Shown here: piece after piece, positions 2,341 to 10,585 of the stretch
How positions within the stretch are numbered: the stretch's first letter is position 1
Layout of the letters: each line of letters opens with the position of its first letter
Assembly (NCBI GenBank): GCA_025201365.1
Contig: JAIXMF010000258.1
Coordinates: forward strand, 1-20,000
Origin: Syncephalis plumigaleata
Taxonomy: Eukaryota; Zoopagomycota; Zoopagomycetes; Zoopagales; Piptocephalidaceae
Length of the DNA stretch: 20,000 bases
Direction of reading: 5' to 3'
Notes under the pieces: generated by a model
Told to the model about the DNA's origin: nothing
The model's database searches: none
What the model saw: only the letters and a program-made list of their open reading frames with translations
Translations under genes and position numbers: made by a program

Positions 2341-3039
2341 CTAGTTTAATATGCTCTTTATCCGCGATTCAATATATTCTGTCGCAGTTAAAACATCTAT
2401 AGCTGGATTCACCATCCGAAACAAATCTACCAATATTACTGTGGATTTGTCCTTTAAGGATAGTAGGTATTGTGTCTTTTTCTTCACTTGAAGTTTACCT
2501 TTACCCACAACCCTAAACATCAAGCGATTTTTAGCATCGAAGCATAGATCTATTGGACATTGATGTTAGCATTAACTAGTGTGATTTGCAGTATACTTAC
2601 TTTTGGGGACAGGGTCAATTCGGTAATGGTTTGTATGTGCAAATTGCAATCCTAGATAACAGCGTTAGTATGACATATCTACAATCATTGCTTAATACTT
2701 ACCTGCATAAAATTCCGATTGTGCAAGGATGATCTGTACCCTTCGTTGACTTTTATCAGGACTAGCACGAACGAGGTTTAAGTAATCCTCATACGTATGC
2801 GCACATGGTGCCGTAGTTGTTTTACATTGATACGATTGACCATTGTTAGTGAGTGCACTGCCAGATATATATGCATCTTCGCAAACAATATAGCCGAGCT
2901 TGTTACGTCTGCTTAGTGTATGTCCTTGACGAGAATTTGATAGGGAACTGTCCGTTGTCGTAATGGCTGCATTGGTGGTCGATGCTAGTAGAAGCATGGT
3001 AGTTGCGATAACGCCGGTCAAGCCTAGATTGAAGCGCAT
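2341..3039 (-). CDS. Secreted protein of unknown family, three exons
   Basis: Exons 3039-2703, 2651-2601 and 2549-2341 join in one frame to 198 residues. Both introns start with GTAAGT, end in TAG/ATAG and contain CTAAC/CTAGT-type branch regions. Residues 1-24 are a clear signal peptide (Arg near the start, a hydrophobic run, then small residues up to about Ala24). The mature part has four cysteines spread through its middle, at about residues 53, 72, 79 and 131, and is otherwise hydrophilic with a Lys-rich stretch (about 147-155). I do not recognise a domain. The start is the first ATG after a TATA box about 105 nt upstream. It lies about 2.1 kb from the micro-exon peptide gene on the same strand. 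Secretion is inferred; function is unknown. Confidence 0.75.
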
Positions 3040-3143
3040 GGTGAACTATGTGTTCCGATAGATTCGTAGTGAGTTGTAGGACGAGTGTATAGAAAGTGTA
3101 GTAATATGGTTATCCATCTTTGCATCACGAATAATGGCGCCCA

Positions 3144-3149
3144 TTTATA
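3144..3149 (-). promoter_or_regulatory. TATA box of the 2341-3039 gene
   Basis: The minus strand reads CTATAAATGG, about 105 nt before the ATG at 3039. Just downstream (relative to +) there is an AGCAGT-type triplet run at about 3158-3178. Confidence 0.5.
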
Positions 3150-3361
3150 GGAGTAACAGCAGTAGCAGTAGCAGTAGTTGACCAGTCGGGTATGCATTGT
3201 AAATGAGCCATTTGAACTGTAAGGTATTTGTCTTTTTTCATTTATGTCACTATACTATCGTGCTTATTTTTTCTTTATTGCATTGATAAGGCAATGGTTG
3301 TTGCTGTGATTGGATCGTGTAGTGAATATTACTCATTTGTTGGATAGAATGGCGAGAATCC

Positions 3362-3656
3362 ATGATAGAGGTTGTATTAGTTCCAGATGGCATTACCTCC
3401 TTAGTCAAGCACGAGGACAAATCATATAACCGGTCAGGTTACTTATCATCTAATTTGCTTCTGATTTAGCTTGCCAAAGATTCGGAATAACTACAAATGT
3501 GCAATTATACCCGACGAGGAGATGCCATGGAACGTGGTGATGTACTCGACAAAGATTGATGTCATTTGTCTATTCAGTAATACGTGTAGCCGTGAACTAT
3601 ATGGATGGTCATTATTGCTACAAGCACCTATCGACATGATTGATGATACTCGATAG
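3362..3656 (+). CDS. Possible small two-exon gene of unknown function
   Basis: Exons 3362-3432 and 3470-3656 would give 85 residues with the frame kept across a 37-nt intron. That intron has a branch-like CTAAT and a TTTAG acceptor, but its donor, GTCAGG, is poor. The product has four Cys and a Trp-rich C-terminal half and matches no family I know. Composition is not clearly different from the surroundings. It is divergent from the secreted-protein gene. It could be noise or an exon of a longer gene. Confidence 0.22.
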
Positions 3657-3986
3657 TGATATCGCTCATATTACTGCTCCATTGTTAATCATATTGACTG
3701 GATTGCCATATACATATTGATTTGGACTAGCGGTGTCAACTATGGAACACGGCATTCTAATGCTCATCTACGCATGTTTCAGCACAAGTACTCGTTTGCC
3801 ATAGCGGTACATACTCGGATGCATTAAACTGACACCGCCATTATGTATCTAAACAGTTTGTAATGAAGATGAACGAGAATTGAATATTAATGCTAAAACT
3901 AGCCTATTATCATTGTCATTTGCGTCAGAATGTCATGGTATATTGCCAAAGAAAAAAGAATAATGAGAATAATGAATATTTGTTAC
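3657..3986. other. Intergenic, nothing recognised
   Basis: AT-rich stretch with no continuous coding frame and no RNA gene recognised. It lies downstream of the GH20 remnant. Confidence 0.4.
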
Positions 3987-3987
3987 T

Positions 3988-4462
3988 TTATTCGAATTTG
4001 TATCTATCGCAACTTCCTGGATGCAACTCGCACCAAGGCATACTAATGGGATCGGCACGTATGCCTCGTTGTAACAATCGGTGTCGTAGCTTGTAGATAC
4101 GCGACAGAGCATCTCGCGAGCTATACACCTGTCCATTAGCATCCCTGTGACCACTCCATAGTTTCTCGCCTACAGCACCGGCACGAGGCCAGACTCGCAT
4201 GTCAAGCACGTAGGCATCGCTTTTCTCGGACCATAAGGCCACTTCACCGCCAAGTATATCGGGATGCGATCTATCCACATTACCGGTCGACTCAAGTCCC
4301 TCGATTATGTTGTGCGCGTACATGTGCTGCCATGATCTGTAGGAATTGCACTCTGGATCCTTATCGCCTACCGACCACATCCAATCACCTTGACCACGAT
4401 CGAGATACCAATGATTGGTGATGGATACAATGACGCGCAATCCCACTACAATCATCCGTGTA
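3988..4462 (-). pseudogene. C-terminal part of GH20 beta-N-acetylhexosaminidase, catalytic half missing
   Basis: One open frame of about 157 codons after an acceptor-like TTGCAG ends at a TAA (3988-3990) that overlaps an AATAAA. It shows hallmarks of the last third of the GH20 barrel: a VIVS...WYLD segment, an ILGGEVALWSE segment, RVWPRAGAVGEKLWS, and a Cys-rich C-terminal tail ending in HPGSC. GH20 enzymes cleave terminal GlcNAc from chitin oligomers. The HxGGDE motif with the catalytic Asp-Glu pair and the N-terminal domain should precede this. No such coding was found upstream to 5160, where the peptide gene's 3' end begins, nor in 7900-9860. It is therefore most likely a 5'-truncated remnant. 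A C-terminal exon after a very long intron is a weaker option. Confidence 0.62.
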
Positions 4463-5190
4463 CTGCAATCATAGTAGCGTATACCGAATGATCACGGATA
4501 TCATATGTGGTGCTAGGCTGTGTCATGCTATCAACGAGATACAATAATGATAAAATTGACAATCATTGAGCAGATGATATGTACTTGTGCATAATAAATA
4601 AACTGCTATCAATAATGCTGATTAGTTGTGTCTACACAATTATTCAAACACTAGTGTACACCAATGCGGTAGATGCATGCGATGTGCAGCAGAACGTCTA
4701 GATCCAATTGTTAATGGTGTCACGATGTGCTATTGAAGAATACGTATCCATTGCAATTACCTCTTTCTCTTTCTCTTTCTCTCTCCTTTCCTTTTTCACA
4801 TTTGACTACGTCCTCCGTAATCACTTGTATGTGTATCGAATCGTGTTTTCACCACTCTCATTGCTCGCTGTTGTCATCACTCACTTCCATGCTGTTGTAT
4901 CGTTTAAGCATTAAAGTATAGAAACGTAGACGTTGTCTTTGTTCCTAGCATTACAGCAACACTAGACATAGTTATGACATGTGGTAATCCAAGTGTAATG
5001 ACAATATGTAGGAAGCATAGTTCTAAGGATACTGACATATGTGATGAAATAGCAGTCGTGTAAGCAATACTCGATGACCTCACTCAATATACAATGCTCA
5101 TTCATGGCACACGATAAGTAATAAGCATAGCTGGAGTAGAAGAAAGAATCGAACGATGAATAGAGTAGAAGAATGCCCTATAGCATTACA
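4463..5190. other. Intergenic between GH20 remnant and peptide gene
   Basis: No GH20 N-terminal coding and no other gene seen on either strand. A CTTTCT/CTCTTT pyrimidine tract lies at 4761-4798 (+). Confidence 0.45.
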
Positions 5191-5192
5191 TA

Positions 5193-5198
5193 TTTATT
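5193..5198 (-). terminator. Poly(A) signal AATAAA of the micro-exon peptide gene
   Basis: The minus strand reads TTGAATAAATATG about 200 nt beyond the last inferred splice acceptor (5400). Confidence 0.4.
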
Positions 5199-5399
5199 CA
5201 ATCAATGAACCAGCCATTAGTTGATATTTATGTAATAGGGCCATGGATGAATAGACGTAAGGGACTTGTAGATATACTTGTTGTTGTTGTACCAAGGAAT
5301 AATGACTTGAATGACATGGACACTAAATGAGGGTCTTGCACCAATACATTCTTGGCTTGAATACCTATAATATCTACTTGATGATATCCTTGTCTTGTC

Positions 5400-5451
5400 C
5401 TGTAATCATAATGGATTAGTATGAGTATGCTTATTGTGGATTATTACTTAC
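5400..5451 (-). other. 3' UTR intron of the micro-exon peptide gene
   Basis: 52 nt with a GTAAGT donor, a TACTAAT branch and a TTACAG acceptor. It starts 3 nt after the stop codon and unlike the upstream introns is not a member of the repeated intron family. The junction is close enough to the stop that a 50-nt decay rule would not be triggered. Confidence 0.6.
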
Positions 5452-5454
5452 TGC

Positions 5455-7728
5455 TTAATTTCGTGGCTATTCAATCAATTAATATAGATTGTATTGTGAT
5501 TAGTGTAGAGTAGGTGATGATTGAAATGATAACTTACATCCTATCATAAAGGACATACATGGATCATGCGCCATACTGTAGTTAGTACTCATTCATACAT
5601 TAGAGTCAGCAATATTTACTTACCCACTATCATACATGAGTATAAGTAGATCATGTGCCGTATTAATATCAATACACCTATACGTTATCATCGGGAATAG
5701 TAACTTACGCACTGTTATCCACAAATTTATGGAAATCATGTGCCATGTTTATCATTAATACGTTGTATATTATCATCGTGCATATTGACTTACTTCCTAT
5801 TATACGAAAACGTATGTGGATTGTGTGACACATTAGAATTAGTACTCATTCATTATGATTGAAATGTCAACTTACTTTCTATTATACAGGAGCATGCAGG
5901 ATCATGTGCCATACTATGATTAGTACCCCCCTCATTACAATCAGAATGATAACTTACGCGCTATCATACAAGAAATCATGTGCCATGTTATAATTAGTAC
6001 CTCATTCTCCACAGTCAGAATCATTACTTACGTCCTATCATACAAGAATGTAGGTGGATAATGTGCCGTATTGCAATTAGTATGTTATACATTACGGTCA
6101 GAACGATTACTTACGCTCTATCATACACGGACATGTGTTAATTGTGTGCCATACTGTAGTTAGTACATCAACACATTGTAGCCAGAATAATGACAACTTA
6201 CTCCCTATTAGACATAGACATATGTAAATCATATACAATACTATGATTAGTGCCTTATACATTACGGTAAGAATAATGACTTACGACCTATCATACAGAA
6301 ATATACGCGGATCATGCGTCATAGCGTGATTAGCACTCATTCACGCATTGCAATTAGAATGGTAACTTACGACCTAGCATACAGGAACGTATGCGGTAGT
6401 GGGCCACATTGGTATTAGTACACTTGATATTATGATCAGAATGATCACTTACATGCTGTAATACATGGGCGTATGTGGACCATGGGCGATATCATAGTTA
6501 GTACATTCATTCATTACGACCATAATGGTAACCTACACACTGTTATGGGCAGATATACGTATGGATCGAGTGTCACATCATCATTAGTACGCCATAGTTT
6601 ATAACTGGAATGATAACTTACACACTGTCATACCGGGACGATCGCGTGTCATACTACAGTTAATGTCTTATACGTTGTAGTCAGAATGATAACTTACAAG
6701 CTACCGTATACAAACATATGTGGGTCATGTGCCATAACGTGATTAGTACTCATCCATAGATTACAATTAGAATGATAACTTACTCCCTGTTTATACACAA
6801 ACACAGATGAAGCGTGTGCCATACTGCAATTAGTACCACATTCATCATAATCAACATGATTACTTACGTTCTATCATACAGGAACATACGTAAGTCGTGT
6901 GTCATACTGTGGTTAGTGCAGTGTACAGCATCATCAGAACAATAACTTACCTCCTATCATAGAGGAGCATGCATAGATAATGTGTCATATCGTAGTTAGT
7001 ATCCATTCATTCATTGTAACCAGGATGATTACTTACATACTATCATACAGGAAAATATGTGGATCATGTGTCATACTATAGTTAGTGTGTCATAGATTGT
7101 AATCGAAATGTTTACTTGCCCACTAGCATACACAGACATATGTTAATCGTATGCCATAAGGTGATCAGTACAGCGTAGATGGCAATCGTAATGGTAACTT
7201 ACTTCCTATTATACAGTAATATATGTGGATCATGTGCCATATTAGAATTAGTACGTCATTCATTGCCATCATACTGATAACCTACGCACTGTGATAGACA
7301 AGCGTATGAATTGTGTAACAGATTATGATTAGTATTTGTGATTAGTATACCATTCATTACAATCATAATGGTAACTTACAGCTTTTTCGAAGATGGTAGT
7401 CACATATGATTTTGGTTTATATTACTATTAGCATAGTACTCGTTATGATCAATAAACTAACTTACGAATTTGTGCTAACAGATTGATAGGAAGAATAAAC
7501 ATTATGATGTGATTAGCATGTCAAAACAACCATTTAATACACATGAACTTACGAGCTATCGGCAATCATCGGTGGACAATGAAACAATAGACTACGATTA
7601 GTACATCAATTGATAGGGTCACGGCCAGACATACCACGACGAATCAATGTGGGCTTGACTTCAGCGGCGACCAGGCTGGCGACAGCGACGACGGCGACGG
7701 CAATAGCGATAATGGCAGAGAACTTCAT
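5455..7728 (-). CDS. Secreted cysteine-rich peptide encoded by a ladder of codon-sized exons
   Basis: Inferred 61-residue preproprotein from 27 coding exons. Exon 1 (7728-7635, phase 1) encodes a signal peptide (about residues 1-22) and a propeptide ending in Arg30-Arg31, a Kex2-type site. After it come micro-exons of 3, 9 and 2 nt (7553-7555, 7466-7474, 7380-7381), so 1+3+9+2 = 15 restores phase 0. Then follow 22 exons of 3 nt, and a final exon (5452-5466) with three codons and TAA at 5457-5455. Coding length is 186 nt, exactly 62 codons. The presumed mature peptide (32-61) has cysteines at 37, 45, 46 and 56, that is C-x7-CC-x9-C, which suggests two disulfides. ATG 7728 is preferred to the in-frame ATG at 7842 because the latter precedes a CTCTACT-repeat leader and lacks a signal peptide at its N-terminus. 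Role unknown; effector, antimicrobial or signalling peptide are guesses. Splicing is inferred from sequence only. Confidence 0.8.
5538..6373 (-). CDS. Single-codon exons 12-22 of the ladder
   Basis: All have a GTAAGT donor after the triplet: 6371-6373 GTC Val; 6285-6287 GTC Val; 6202-6204 GGA Gly; 6115-6117 AGC Ser; 6032-6034 GAC Asp; 5958-5960 CGC Arg; 5876-5878 AAA Lys; 5794-5796 GAA Glu; 5709-5711 TGC Cys; 5624-5626 TGG Trp; 5538-5540 GAT Asp. The intron after the last one (5537-5467) leads to the terminal exon with three codons (Pro, Arg, Asn) and the stop. Confidence 0.75.
6453..7288 (-). CDS. Single-codon exons 1-11 of the ladder
   Basis: Each lies between an acceptor AG and a donor GTAAGT unless noted: 7286-7288 TGC Cys (donor GTAGGT); 7203-7205 GAA Glu; 7120-7122 TGG Trp (donor GCAAGT); 7037-7039 TAT Tyr; 6951-6953 GAG Glu; 6868-6870 AAC Asn; 6784-6786 GGA Gly; 6698-6700 CTT Leu; 6622-6624 TGT Cys; 6537-6539 TGT Cys (donor GTAGGT); 6453-6455 CAT His. 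All are phase 0, so loss of one removes one residue without a frameshift. Confidence 0.75.
7380..7555 (-). CDS. Leader micro-exons (3, 9 and 2 nt) that reset the reading phase
   Basis: Exon 7553-7555 (CTC) follows a 79-nt intron with a GTATGT donor and a CCGATAG acceptor. Exon 7466-7474 (CACAAATTC) follows a 78-nt intron ending CTGTTAG. Exon 7380-7381 (CT) follows an 84-nt intron ending AAAAAG. With the single G left from exon 1 they make five codons (Ala, Pro, Gln, Ile, Pro) and bring the frame to phase 0, where the single-codon exons begin. These three introns share donor and branch (TGCTAAT/TACTAAT) with the array but are more diverged, as if older. The 2-nt exon is the least certain; the alternative 45-nt exon is closed by stops in all frames. 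Confidence 0.62.
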
Positions 7729-7867
7729 GTTGATGTTGGCCTGGTGGAATGGATAGCTCAGCTGACTAGAACGAGAGTAGAAAGTAGAGTAGAAGAGAGT
7801 AGAGTAGAGCAGAGTAGAGAAGAGAGAATATGAAGACGACAAGTCGAGTGTGTCAAAAAGTGCTCGA

Positions 7868-7873
7868 TTTATA
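7868..7873 (-). promoter_or_regulatory. TATA box of the micro-exon peptide gene
   Basis: The minus strand reads GGCTATAAATCG 140 nt before the ATG at 7728. The transcribed leader then carries a CTCTACT-type repeat (7775-7830). The arrangement resembles that of the secreted-protein gene at 2341-3039, which also has a TATA box about 100 nt before a signal-peptide ATG. Confidence 0.6.
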
Positions 7874-7879
7874 GCCGAG

Positions 7880-9870
7880 ATGATGCTAAATATTCAGGTG
7901 GAAAGTATGATGATGGCTATCGTGGCGTCATTCATCATACACGCGAGTAATTCCCCTAAGCATCTACTCCACATGCCGACACGGCATAACGGGATGGAAT
8001 GAGAATGTAACGCTCCATTACGCATTTCATTAGATTGTTTTAGCTCAAAGGCCTTCTCTCCTTATTTCCTTTATCTGGGATATTTTTCATGGGACCTTGT
8101 AACCCAATCCTATGCTGCTATCCACTATTTCCTCCATACTCGCCACTCCCATTTCTCTTTTTACCTGCTAGTTCTAGGGAGAAACATTCGCATTGAGATT
8201 ACTTTGGTGGTGGTGGTGTGATAAAAGTCGTCATTGTCCAAAAGTAGCAGGACTGGTATTCGGATAGGCCAACCTTGGTAAGAGGAGAGATGAAAGGCCC
8301 TAGCACCATGGACTTTTGTCCATACGTTTTGCCAACCTGATATGAGGGAACTGCATGACCATTTGCTGGTCGAGGGTTATACAGCCAACCTCAGTTCGAG
8401 TAAAACAGGTCAGTTCAACAGAGCGTGTTACAGCCATTCCATTTTCGAATAGAAGCCTGTGCTAAATCATTAGAATAGCCAATCATTTAACGAGGAATGA
8501 AGTAATTGTCATCTGCGATACAATGACACAAATACAAGCATACAACAATGTACGAGTATTTCATGATATCCGTTGCTTTCAAAGTGATCGGATTGGTCAG
8601 TCCAATGTAAGCAAGCTGGGGAATATGAGCATTTGTCGAAGGAGGGAGTGTTTACTTGCTTGGAATTATCGAATGCAACTATCATTAGTCTGGGAACTGA
8701 TGTAGCTCGTTTACATCCACCTATTTGTTCGACATCATTCTTCCCTGTCAATAAAAGTACTCATTTCCATCATCCCTTGTTTTAACTCCTTAGTCTCGCA
8801 TTTCACTAACACTAGACATTATGCTATGCTCGGATTGTTATGCGTATTACATGCATGTGTGGTGAGGATAGTCGGCTGGTCAATGAAGTCGATTAAGAAG
8901 TGGCTAGGTAAGAATAGGAAGCATGCCTGCCTAGTTGGACAGTGATGGCAAATTAGGATGAGTAGCCGATATTGTGCTCATGTAGCATAGAAATACGTGC
9001 GAATTACGAACAATACACGATAGCTCCCAATAATAGAGCGTGCATGTAATTATTATTCTGACTTGATTGTCACATTCATACAAATGTCATTCATTATCAT
9101 GACATCTACATGACATGTTCATTTGTATGTCATTTATCATTGCTCATTCCATTATCAACTGACGTGATCGATACTGATTGTAATGCATCATGACATGTCA
9201 TCGAATGATCCCACAATCATATGGACATGAACATACTTGATGGTATCTATAATGCGATACGACATTCATCCGATCAATATGATCAATTATCATTATTGAT
9301 TACGCTGTATAAACCAACATACTTATGATCTAATCAATCCATTCATTCATTTACGTACACATGCAGTTTACTCTACCAACAGTTTCCCCAATTGCTCATA
9401 GACTTGTGTAGCACATACTGAATCCTACTAGTACACTTATTAGCAATGCTCAACATTATACCACCATTCTTTGTCACTTTATCTATTTGTTGCTGAGCTA
9501 TATGCGGCATTATACCATTGCAGCAAAGTCACCAATGGTATTAAATGATACGAAGTTTACATTGCCGTATTCACGATACATACTCGAATAAACACAGATA
9601 TTAAGCAATACAATACATGTTAATAATCATCATCATATTGCTACTATTATTGAGTAGTTGTCATGACACTAGCAGTTGAGGATCATCGCTTCCACACATA
9701 AAATACGTAAGTTTTATTAGCATAGCTATTATTTATTCGTAAAAAAAGGATAACTGCGCAAATTGGATGGAAAAAGTCTGTACCAATTATGATCATACTT
9801 TGACTTGAATCGCACCAATATTCAAATCGATAACTTGCTTCTCATTTCCTTCCTTTACTACCATATCGAC
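7880..9870. other. About 2 kb without a recognisable gene
   Basis: Includes the promoter of the peptide gene at its left end. The overlapping frames around 8509-8751 on both strands show no domain, splice context or signal peptide. Features seen: a GGT run at 8202-8218; a (T)GACAT/ATGTCA-rich stretch at about 9066-9200 with an imperfect inverted repeat (ATACAAATG near 9078 against CATTTGTAT near 9121). No tRNA, rRNA or snRNA motif was recognised. The plus strand near 9705-9715 has an isolated GTAAGT without a partner exon. Confidence 0.45.
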
Positions 9871-9874
9871 TGTT

Positions 9875-10585
9875 ATGTATCTACTCATCTACACCACCGC
9901 TGCCTTTTACTTTCTACTAGTCTACGGACTTACCCTTACCTCGCTGTTTGACCTGCGCTGGTTGGTTGTATCGGGACCGGCACCGTTTAGTTACGAGGTA
10001 ACCTACGGTCTAGGTGTTCGTTGCAGTGCCTTCGGTCAGTGTCGTGCATTCCCGCAGGAATCCGAAGGGGATTGCTCCGAGGATGACCCGCTCCAAATTG
10101 GTAGCATTAGTAGCGGCCCCGTCCTCGGCTACCAGTTCAACTTTTGCGGTAGTTGGCGGGCAGCGCGCTTTGCCGCTATGGCGGGGGCCGCCCTCGGAGT
10201 GGTCATACTAGCCGAGATATTCGGTGTGTTGTGTGCTGGCTCCTTAGCACGCCAACAGCGTGCTTGGAAATCAATTACCGCTTTGTTCGCGGCACATGGT
10301 ACGTGCAACAGCAATAATAACAATAATATAGTTAACACTGCCACACTTGCTCATATATACACATAATTAACGTAATATTCGTTGCTAGCTTTATGTTACA
10401 TGTTTGCCACAGGGATCATACACTATTTGCGTGAAATGTCCGATCGCTTTTATTTCGGTACTAGTTTTGGATCAGGATTCTACATGGCACTAATAGGATG
10501 GATTCTGGACTGGTTTGCGGTAGTTGCCCTTTGCGCGTATGGGCTAGTCAAGTCACAACATGATTATTATGTAATTATAGCTTGA
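9875..10585 (+). CDS. Four-pass membrane protein, SUR7/claudin-like topology
   Basis: Exons 9875-10298 and 10413-10585 give 198 residues; the intron (10299-10412, GTACGT...CCACAG) keeps the frame through a Gly codon. A first hydrophobic helix (about 7-25) is followed by a long extracytoplasmic loop with several Cys (a Cys-x5-Cys pair near residue 50 and more by 70 and 90). A second helix lies at about 102-126, a weaker third near 132-148, and a fourth at about 160-187 in exon 2. This layout fits fungal SUR7/PalI-like tetraspan proteins of the plasma membrane cortex. No signature motif was strong enough to name a subfamily. The short polar C-tail is normal. The ATG follows a pyrimidine-rich leader. 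Confidence 0.7.

Follow-up and report, generated by a model that had tools for sequence, protein, structure and literature searches.

A gene family of Syncephalis plumigaleata in which single-codon exons very probably encode most of a small, putatively secreted peptide

On the minus strand of a 20,000-nucleotide (nt) stretch of contig C177 (the window), from a 32.6-Mb assembly of the fungus Syncephalis plumigaleata, lies a gene in which, very probably, most codons of a small, putatively secreted peptide each occupy an exon of their own. The initial annotation had described 22 consecutive one-codon units running from 7288 to 5538 on this strand; all 22 triplets are where it placed them, and its donor counts hold (GTAAGT 19, GTAGGT 2 and GCAAGT 1). 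The acceptor octamer that it called usual, TATGATAG, is the commonest form but is exact in only 9 of the 22 units, though every acceptor ends in TAG or CAG. Its central proposal, a gene of consecutive one-codon exons, which it considered without precedent or nearly so, is strengthened by a family of paralogues, by stop-free triplets, by retained splice sites, by selection on the triplets and by a second array, L042. What does not stand is its extension to a whole mature peptide, since one-codon exons supply 22 of the 30 residues downstream of the RR that closes the first exon's product. Beyond what that annotation described, the gene belongs to a large family in the S. plumigaleata genome. The window model comprises 28 exons:

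7635..7728, minus strand: exon 1, coding part, 94 nt with donor GTATGT, encoding MKFSAIIAIAVAVVAVASLVAAEVKPTLIRR and the first base of the next codon
7553..7555, minus strand: exon 2, CTC, 3 nt, its bases divided over two codons
7466..7474, minus strand: exon 3, CACAAATTC, 9 nt
7380..7381, minus strand: exon 4, CT, 2 nt
5538..7288, minus strand: exons 5-26, the 22 one-codon exons, with related introns of 71-84 nt, reading CEWYENGLCCHVVGSDRKECWD
5452..5466, minus strand: exon 27, CCACGAAATTAAGCA, 15 nt, with the codons PRN and then the stop TAA at 5457-5455
5200..5399, minus strand: terminal exon, 3' untranslated region (UTR), starting at the first AG past the branch-site-like motif TACTAATCC

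Exon 1 encodes a hydrophobic signal sequence, and the RR at its end is probably a Kex2 site. Because 94 + 3 + 9 + 2 = 108 nt precede the array, its triplets are whole codons in phase 0, and the array exons are symmetric; their order is TGC GAA TGG TAT GAG AAC GGA CTT TGT TGT CAT in the first half and GTC GTC GGA AGC GAC CGC AAA GAA TGC TGG GAT in the second. The phase-1 reading that would follow from the 94-nt exon 1 alone was rejected because it runs into a stop, TGA, within the window (TAT|GAG). From exon 2 up to the stop, 23 of 26 exons measure 3 nt, the others 9, 2 and 15 nt. Two features are new relative to the initial annotation: the extra triplet exon (CTC) upstream of the 9- and 2-nt exons, and a stop codon in the 15-nt exon instead of the terminal one, with an intron in the 3' UTR separating the two. 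The 5200 end of the terminal exon is arbitrary, and our modelling script preferred a later AG, which would start that exon at 5364.

Units of this kind recur far beyond the window, and three-base units tile the arrays that we fetched. A strict pair pattern, ATAGNNNGTAAGTN{60,89}AGNNNGTAAGT, has 1059 matches in the 32.6-Mb genome against 0 for the reversed pattern, and the array pattern is therefore not a product of chance; extrapolated from these pairs (the fetched sequence holds 405 strict pairs and 937 strict triplets), the assembly would contain roughly 2450 one-codon exons, a rough estimate that counts both haplotypes. In 742 units (25 chains, taken from the window and from 20 fetched loci) the information content of the triplet columns is 0.03-0.13 bits, and flanking columns outside the search pattern reach up to 1.3 bits; AG and most of the donor are set by the pattern itself. 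Of 660 introns, 655 contain a YTRAY-type branch motif, mostly with the A 42-43 nt ahead of the exon. The introns are also related to one another beyond their splice signals, as expected of an introner-type family: scored with the branch motif retained and the donor and acceptor letters omitted, window introns average 0.263 per nt among themselves and 0.256 against those of the array L011, compared with about -0.01 for shuffled sequences, and their alignment has a mean column identity of 67%.

The triplets lying between these introns have the properties of codons. Read in phase 0, none of 903 strict triplets from 33 arrays is a stop, where column composition predicts about 32, and the same arrays give 10 stops in 870 in the +1 frame and 95 in 870 in the +2 frame; a doubtful chain, L024-143, had been excluded in advance from the 903, and its 15 triplets are likewise stop-free. 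Restricting the count to 23 non-redundant arrays leaves 0 stops in 627, with 22 expected (P ~2e-10).

Splice signals are retained while the introns around them diverge. We compared seven paralogous or allelic pairs of arrays, using as a control the proportion of 8-letter intron windows that are identical; the contrast is somewhat flattering, in that the splice pattern tolerates a few letter changes and the control none. Intact units number 21/22 for window/L009 (control 29%), 20/22 for window/L010 (27%), 29/30 for L014b/L019b (38%), 29/30 for L014b/L027 (24%), 34/36 for L021/L023 (61%), 41/42 for L014a/L019a (62%) and 28/34 for L011/L015 (62%).

The triplets, by contrast with the introns, evolve at a pace of their own. 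We compared 12 pairs, some with members in common and so not all independent of one another; the triplets are significantly more diverged than the introns in seven and significantly less in one. Differences affect 28/87 triplet nucleotides (32%) and 230/2378 intron nucleotides (10%) in L011/L015 (p=1.6e-8), 27/63 and 290/1593 in window/L010 (p=1e-5), and 24/66 and 290/1596 in window/L009, where triplets are again significantly higher. The opposite is seen in L021/L023, with 2/102 (2%) in triplets and 262/2825 (9%) in introns (p=0.007); L016/L017, at 0/69 and 60/1687, shows no significant difference. Faster change than the introns in some pairs and slower change in another imply that selection acts on exactly these three bases. 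The choice of codons points to splicing as well: glutamine is encoded by CAA 15 times and by CAG never in the non-redundant arrays, against 33 and 16 times in six open reading frame (ORF) segments of the window (p=0.014), and AAG makes up 7 of 48 lysine codons in arrays against 15 of 38 in the ORF segments (p=0.012). A CAG or AAG triplet would create a second usable acceptor (for CAG, a YAG at the exon's end) and with it an exon of zero length. Taken together, the comparison of loci shows arrays whose units keep their donor, branch-site-like motif and acceptor and whose triplets are in phase 0, free of stops and under selection of their own.

A second array, unrelated to the window's family, links the one-codon architecture to a protein encoded in the ordinary way. 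L042 (C1:1411200-1419000, minus strand) is modelled with 69 exons, mostly of 3 nt, and donors GTAAGC or GTAAGT; it spells WIHDYIYRIEKDSA and LEKANQHLDLFGTIAFEKQKD, both homologous to the annotated protein P0010 and in matching order. The first stretch reads W-I-H-D-Y-I-Y-R-I-E-KD-S-A, and the second, past a 21-nt exon (LEKANQH), reads L-D-L-F-G-T-I-A-F-E-K-Q-K-D; P0010 carries WIQDYIVRVRKKSA and then LQAANQHLDLFGAAAFEKRQKD inside its first 102 amino acids, in contiguous codons at C318:1455923-1456228. With the two L042 stretches joined through the better-resolved part of the region between them, BLASTP against P0010 gave 33/83 identical residues (E 6e-11, one comparison), and the L042/P0010 scores were reached by 0 of 20,000 shuffles. 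Judged by this homology, related proteins are encoded codon by codon in L042, as modelled, and in one exon in P0010; either a gain of introns in L042 or a processed copy as the source of the P0010 ORF would fit. The introns of L042 resemble those of the window more than shuffled sequences do, a similarity partly owed to splice signals, and the exon 1 of the window's family is absent both from the fetched L042 stretch and from the list of at least 148 protein-search matches given below. A protein search found no relatives of P0010 outside S. plumigaleata.

Within this genome the family is large. A DNA search with the array returned at least 105 matches (best 40 of 125 candidates scored). A protein search (150 of 169 candidates scored) returned at least 148, and all but one of these 148, or 147, include the signal/RR exon, with copies on both haplotypes counted; the loci that we fetched and modelled are part of the family, mainly those closest to the window. 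The script behind the models scores splice signals and the lengths of introns and exons and is blind to stops and amino acids. Early models without an exon 1 anchor, or with any hydrophobic ATG start, were dropped because their starts fell inside introns, a fault that anchoring on the common exon 1 cured. All 30 models so anchored have a 94-nt exon 1 with a hydrophobic N terminus, and in 18 of them the stop falls in the penultimate exon. Ahead of the array, 15 of these 18 complete models have a 5-nt exon and the remaining three (window, L015, L030) one of 2 nt, either of which restores phase 0; the 17 complete models other than the window's close with a similar ..TAAGCR or ..TAAACA exon. The dipeptide CC is present in 14 of the 18 peptides and absent from four, which include GLGGKGGK, KAKAKAKL and HHHGHHGGHH behind the same exon 1. 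Among 12 hand-picked precursors of the cysteine type, the invariant columns are MKFSA, RR, one C, and CC.

Two public gene models, P0001 and P0006, contain long runs that match joined triplets, for example NPINGSMDYVYWKPIVPGYWGPIN of L028. They look like ab initio predictions rather than proof of a transcript, and we set P0001 aside as transcript evidence, given that the model skips codons, some with weaker donors. No contiguous copy of the L028 peptide, such as retroposition would leave, turned up among 143 genome matches, none of which extends past residue 56 of 81. In two protein searches, which need shared short exact words, the named relatives come solely from S. plumigaleata, with seven further entries besides. 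Six JGI/ENA entries, presumably metagenomic (P0018, P0019, P0020, P0022, P0023 and P0025), lie on short contigs and have a similar signal/RR sequence; in four of this set a stretch resembling intron 1 follows the signal/RR part, and P0022 and P0025 continue as long uninterrupted ORFs, so that members with unsplit codons may exist in another species. The similar first exon of these ORFs suggests that the family is present in at least one further species.

Several observations weigh against the architecture proposed here. Four of the 12 pairs show no significant difference between triplets and introns. GAG is a poor splice acceptor, and its deficit among glutamate codons (17/33 in arrays, 30/45 in ORF segments) is not significant (p=0.24); codon bias also goes beyond the avoidance of AG, with TAT 21 times and TAC never, and CCT 38 times and CCA once. 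In L042, the middle of the model is ambiguous and the homologous stretches, with two predicted 2-nt exons between them, fall into different frames. Twelve of the 30 anchored models (L014b, L018, L019b, L020, L021, L022, L025, L026, L027, L032, L035 and L037) lack clean ends, owing to AGs that allow more than one choice close to the 5-nt exon, to the locus ending, or perhaps to real damage in pseudogenes; under earlier script settings 15 of 23 models ended cleanly, L019b and L027 among them. The script's exon-length preferences were fixed after the first exons were known, with 3 nt free and 2, 5, 6, 9, 12 and 15 nt cheap, and both P0001 and P0006 skip several codons, some of them with weaker donors (GTAGGT, GTAAGC). 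The evidence for the architecture, finally, is comparative and genomic.

Of the other ways to read these loci, the one that survives best takes the exons as real and the mRNA as a mixture, in which one-codon exons are often skipped, peptides differ by whole residues in frame, and the full-length product is one of many. Such skipping is compatible with the one-codon architecture, and the window's array exons, symmetric and in phase 0, would preserve the frame through any skip; alternative splicing has been proposed, in passages of a report on schistosome micro-exon genes, to vary their products (PMC4671649). We nevertheless think it rather unlikely as the general state, since the splice sites of nearly all units are kept and CAG triplets avoided, which suggests that inclusion matters, and since the C and CC are invariant in the 12 chosen cysteine-type precursors. 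Far less probably, the array would be a tandemly repeated stretch within a single large intron, its splice-like motifs remnants of the repeat and its triplets filler, and the mRNA would join exon 1 to the 3' part. The introns are indeed mutual repeats, and the genomic origin of all our data on the array leaves room for this; yet filler would not stay free of stops over 903 triplets, the triplets alone change about three times faster (L011/L015) or four times slower (L021/L023) than the repeat around them, and parts of a known protein, as read from L042, would not arise from filler. In 8 of the 12 pairs the triplet columns evolve at a rate significantly different from that of the remaining repeat; this triplet-specific selection, with the lack of stops, led us to reject a minisatellite without function or a single large intron. 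It is equally hard to credit that the loci are decaying or non-coding, with splicing merely removing repeats or the transcript acting as RNA (as a host of intronic RNA, for example): some members have no clean model and 8 precursors no Pfam match above the cut-off, but stops are absent, the signal/RR exon is common, the triplets are both constrained and diversified, and the window has no Rfam match at gathering thresholds.

Under the one-codon architecture, the spliceosome would remove 27 short introns (~80 nt, with strong sites) by intron definition, probably neighbour by neighbour because a 3-nt exon is too small for two splice complexes at once. Each 3-nt exon would first be joined to its upstream neighbour and then provide the last bases before the next donor. 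The resulting mRNA would encode MKFSAIIAIAVAVVAVASLVAAEVKPTLIRR/APQIPCEWYENGLCCHVVGSDRKECWDPRN, a product expected to enter the secretory path and be cut after RR, and the four cysteines of the window peptide could form two disulfides, bonds that products of the family would often have. Syncephalis is termed a genus of ubiquitous mycoparasites in the title of a work cited by one report (PMC10386755), and because the repertoire is diversifying in a mycoparasite, the peptide is likely one of a set of secreted effectors or antagonists used against host fungi or rivals or in other interactions with them; secretion, Kex2 cutting and this role are all predictions from sequence.

The arrays would grow and change through copying of codon-plus-intron units together with selection on the triplets. 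Window positions 2434-10343 are colinear with L010 (C329:1250368-1258206), the flanks 92-97% identical, the 600 bp ahead of the ATG 86% and the array 81%; the two look like haplotypes, and many codons have changed between their peptides, CEWYENGLCCHVVGSDRKECWD in the window and CQFDINGMCCHSTPDGNFSCWD in L010. L009, about 50 kb from L010 on the same contig, differs from it less (intron divergence 0.078) than the window does (0.182), from which we infer conversion between loci. The window and C329:653023 share 144 nt of exon 1 and the start of intron 1 at 100% identity, and the array at the latter (L037) is a different one.

More tentatively, a codon with its flanking half-introns may be copied as a movable cassette between positions and genes, an idea that we hold at somewhat less than even odds. 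Our comparison covered non-homologous positions in unrelated arrays (18 groups), with cysteine codons excluded. Upstream flanks are more alike for equal codons than for shuffled ones (z 6.2), the nearest neighbour having the same codon in 48 of 599 cases against 21.3 after shuffling (standard deviation 5.0); downstream flanks are so less strongly (z 3.4; 37 of 599 against 21.8, standard deviation 5.2), and the distal 30 nt give z 4.6 upstream and 3.1 downstream. The rare GCAAGT donor accompanies a TGCTAG|TGG unit in 5 of 10 listed units, at different sites in the window, L011, L021, L022 and L026. If cassettes do move, recombination in introns would insert, delete or swap single residues in frame, and in-frame skipping may yield further variants. 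The second cysteine of CC has similar flanks across many arrays and probably serves as an anchor that goes back to the ancestor of the family. In L029 (C1:1742000-1744400), AAG and GCC units alternate (KAKAKAK) with very similar introns, which looks like recent tandem copying of two codon-plus-intron units.

Known introner elements are near-identical intron families that have multiplied in a genome, scattered in ordinary long exons; here, by contrast, the introns are tiled three bases apart. Conotoxin-type precursors likewise pair a conserved signal and pro part with a hypervariable, cysteine-rich mature part; the gene architecture here is unlike theirs. Pfam searches with 8 precursors found nothing above cut-off, the best hit being Conotoxin at 17.7 bits against 25.1, in one of the 8. 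In its layout the window gene resembles schistosome micro-exon genes (MEGs), whose long 5' exon carries the signal peptide wholly or for the most part, whose central part consists mainly of micro-exons, many of them symmetric, and whose products are secreted at the host interface (PMC4671649). The window gene likewise has its signal peptide in a long 5' exon, a central coding part mainly of exons below 36 bp, and predicted secretion. The schistosome micro-exons described there are below 36 bp, 26 of 33 being symmetric in MEGs 26-32 (PMC4671649), unlike runs of at least 22 exons of exactly 3 nt; different too are the fungal organism and the ~80-nt introns that are repeats. Aphid bicycle genes, too, belong to large families of putative effectors that evolve fast, and each is divided into many small exons in one phase (PMC9168663), but these insect genes average about 17 exons, nearly all internal ones in phase 2, and the passages on them mention no single-codon runs (PMC9168663); the window model, with 28 exons and phase 0, shows neither feature. 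Protein searches, which find only relatives sharing short exact words, gave no sequence link that would indicate common descent with either group.

Isolated 3-nt micro-exons are reported to be spliced in Drosophila homothorax and troponin T and in NCAM, and a 1-bp exon in Arabidopsis APC-11, as single micro-exons amid ordinary exons rather than tiled arrays (PMC7392893); human RPS24 is reported to have three neighbouring micro-exons, one of 3 bp (PMC12686416, PMC11162997), whereas here single codons tile the coding region. Among the literature matches listed for micro-exons, 3-nt exons, Syncephalis or Zoopagales, and MEG or bicycle genes, the excerpts describe no gene in which exons of one codon are tiled. 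We regard the architecture as categorically new because its coding unit is the single codon and its arrays are systematic; a looser definition would make it an extreme case of the micro-exon gene.

The region around the gene holds further features:

7729..9230, minus strand: upstream region, 81-90% identical to about 30 listed loci (best 40 of 295 candidates scored), with a CT-rich stretch preceding the ATG
~9014-9612: dispersed repeat upstream of the gene, present at dozens of sites (matches of 587 bp and 313 bp, ~89-94%), probably a transposable element
2692-3039, minus strand: ORF whose start resembles a signal peptide, with three cysteines and no Pfam match

The genes seem to have been copied together with the long upstream region 7729-9230.

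If transcripts confirm the architecture, exons in this fungus would reach the smallest coding size, a single codon, and would do so in long tiled runs, an extrapolated two thousand times or so in the 32.6-Mb assembly. Such genes would offer a natural test of how a spliceosome copes when an exon has no room for two complexes, and also of the idea that introns allow a peptide to evolve residue by residue without frameshifts. Ordinary annotation breaks or misses them, with the public models P0001, P0003 and P0006 holding fragments, and comparable peptide repertoires may for that reason be hidden in other genomes.

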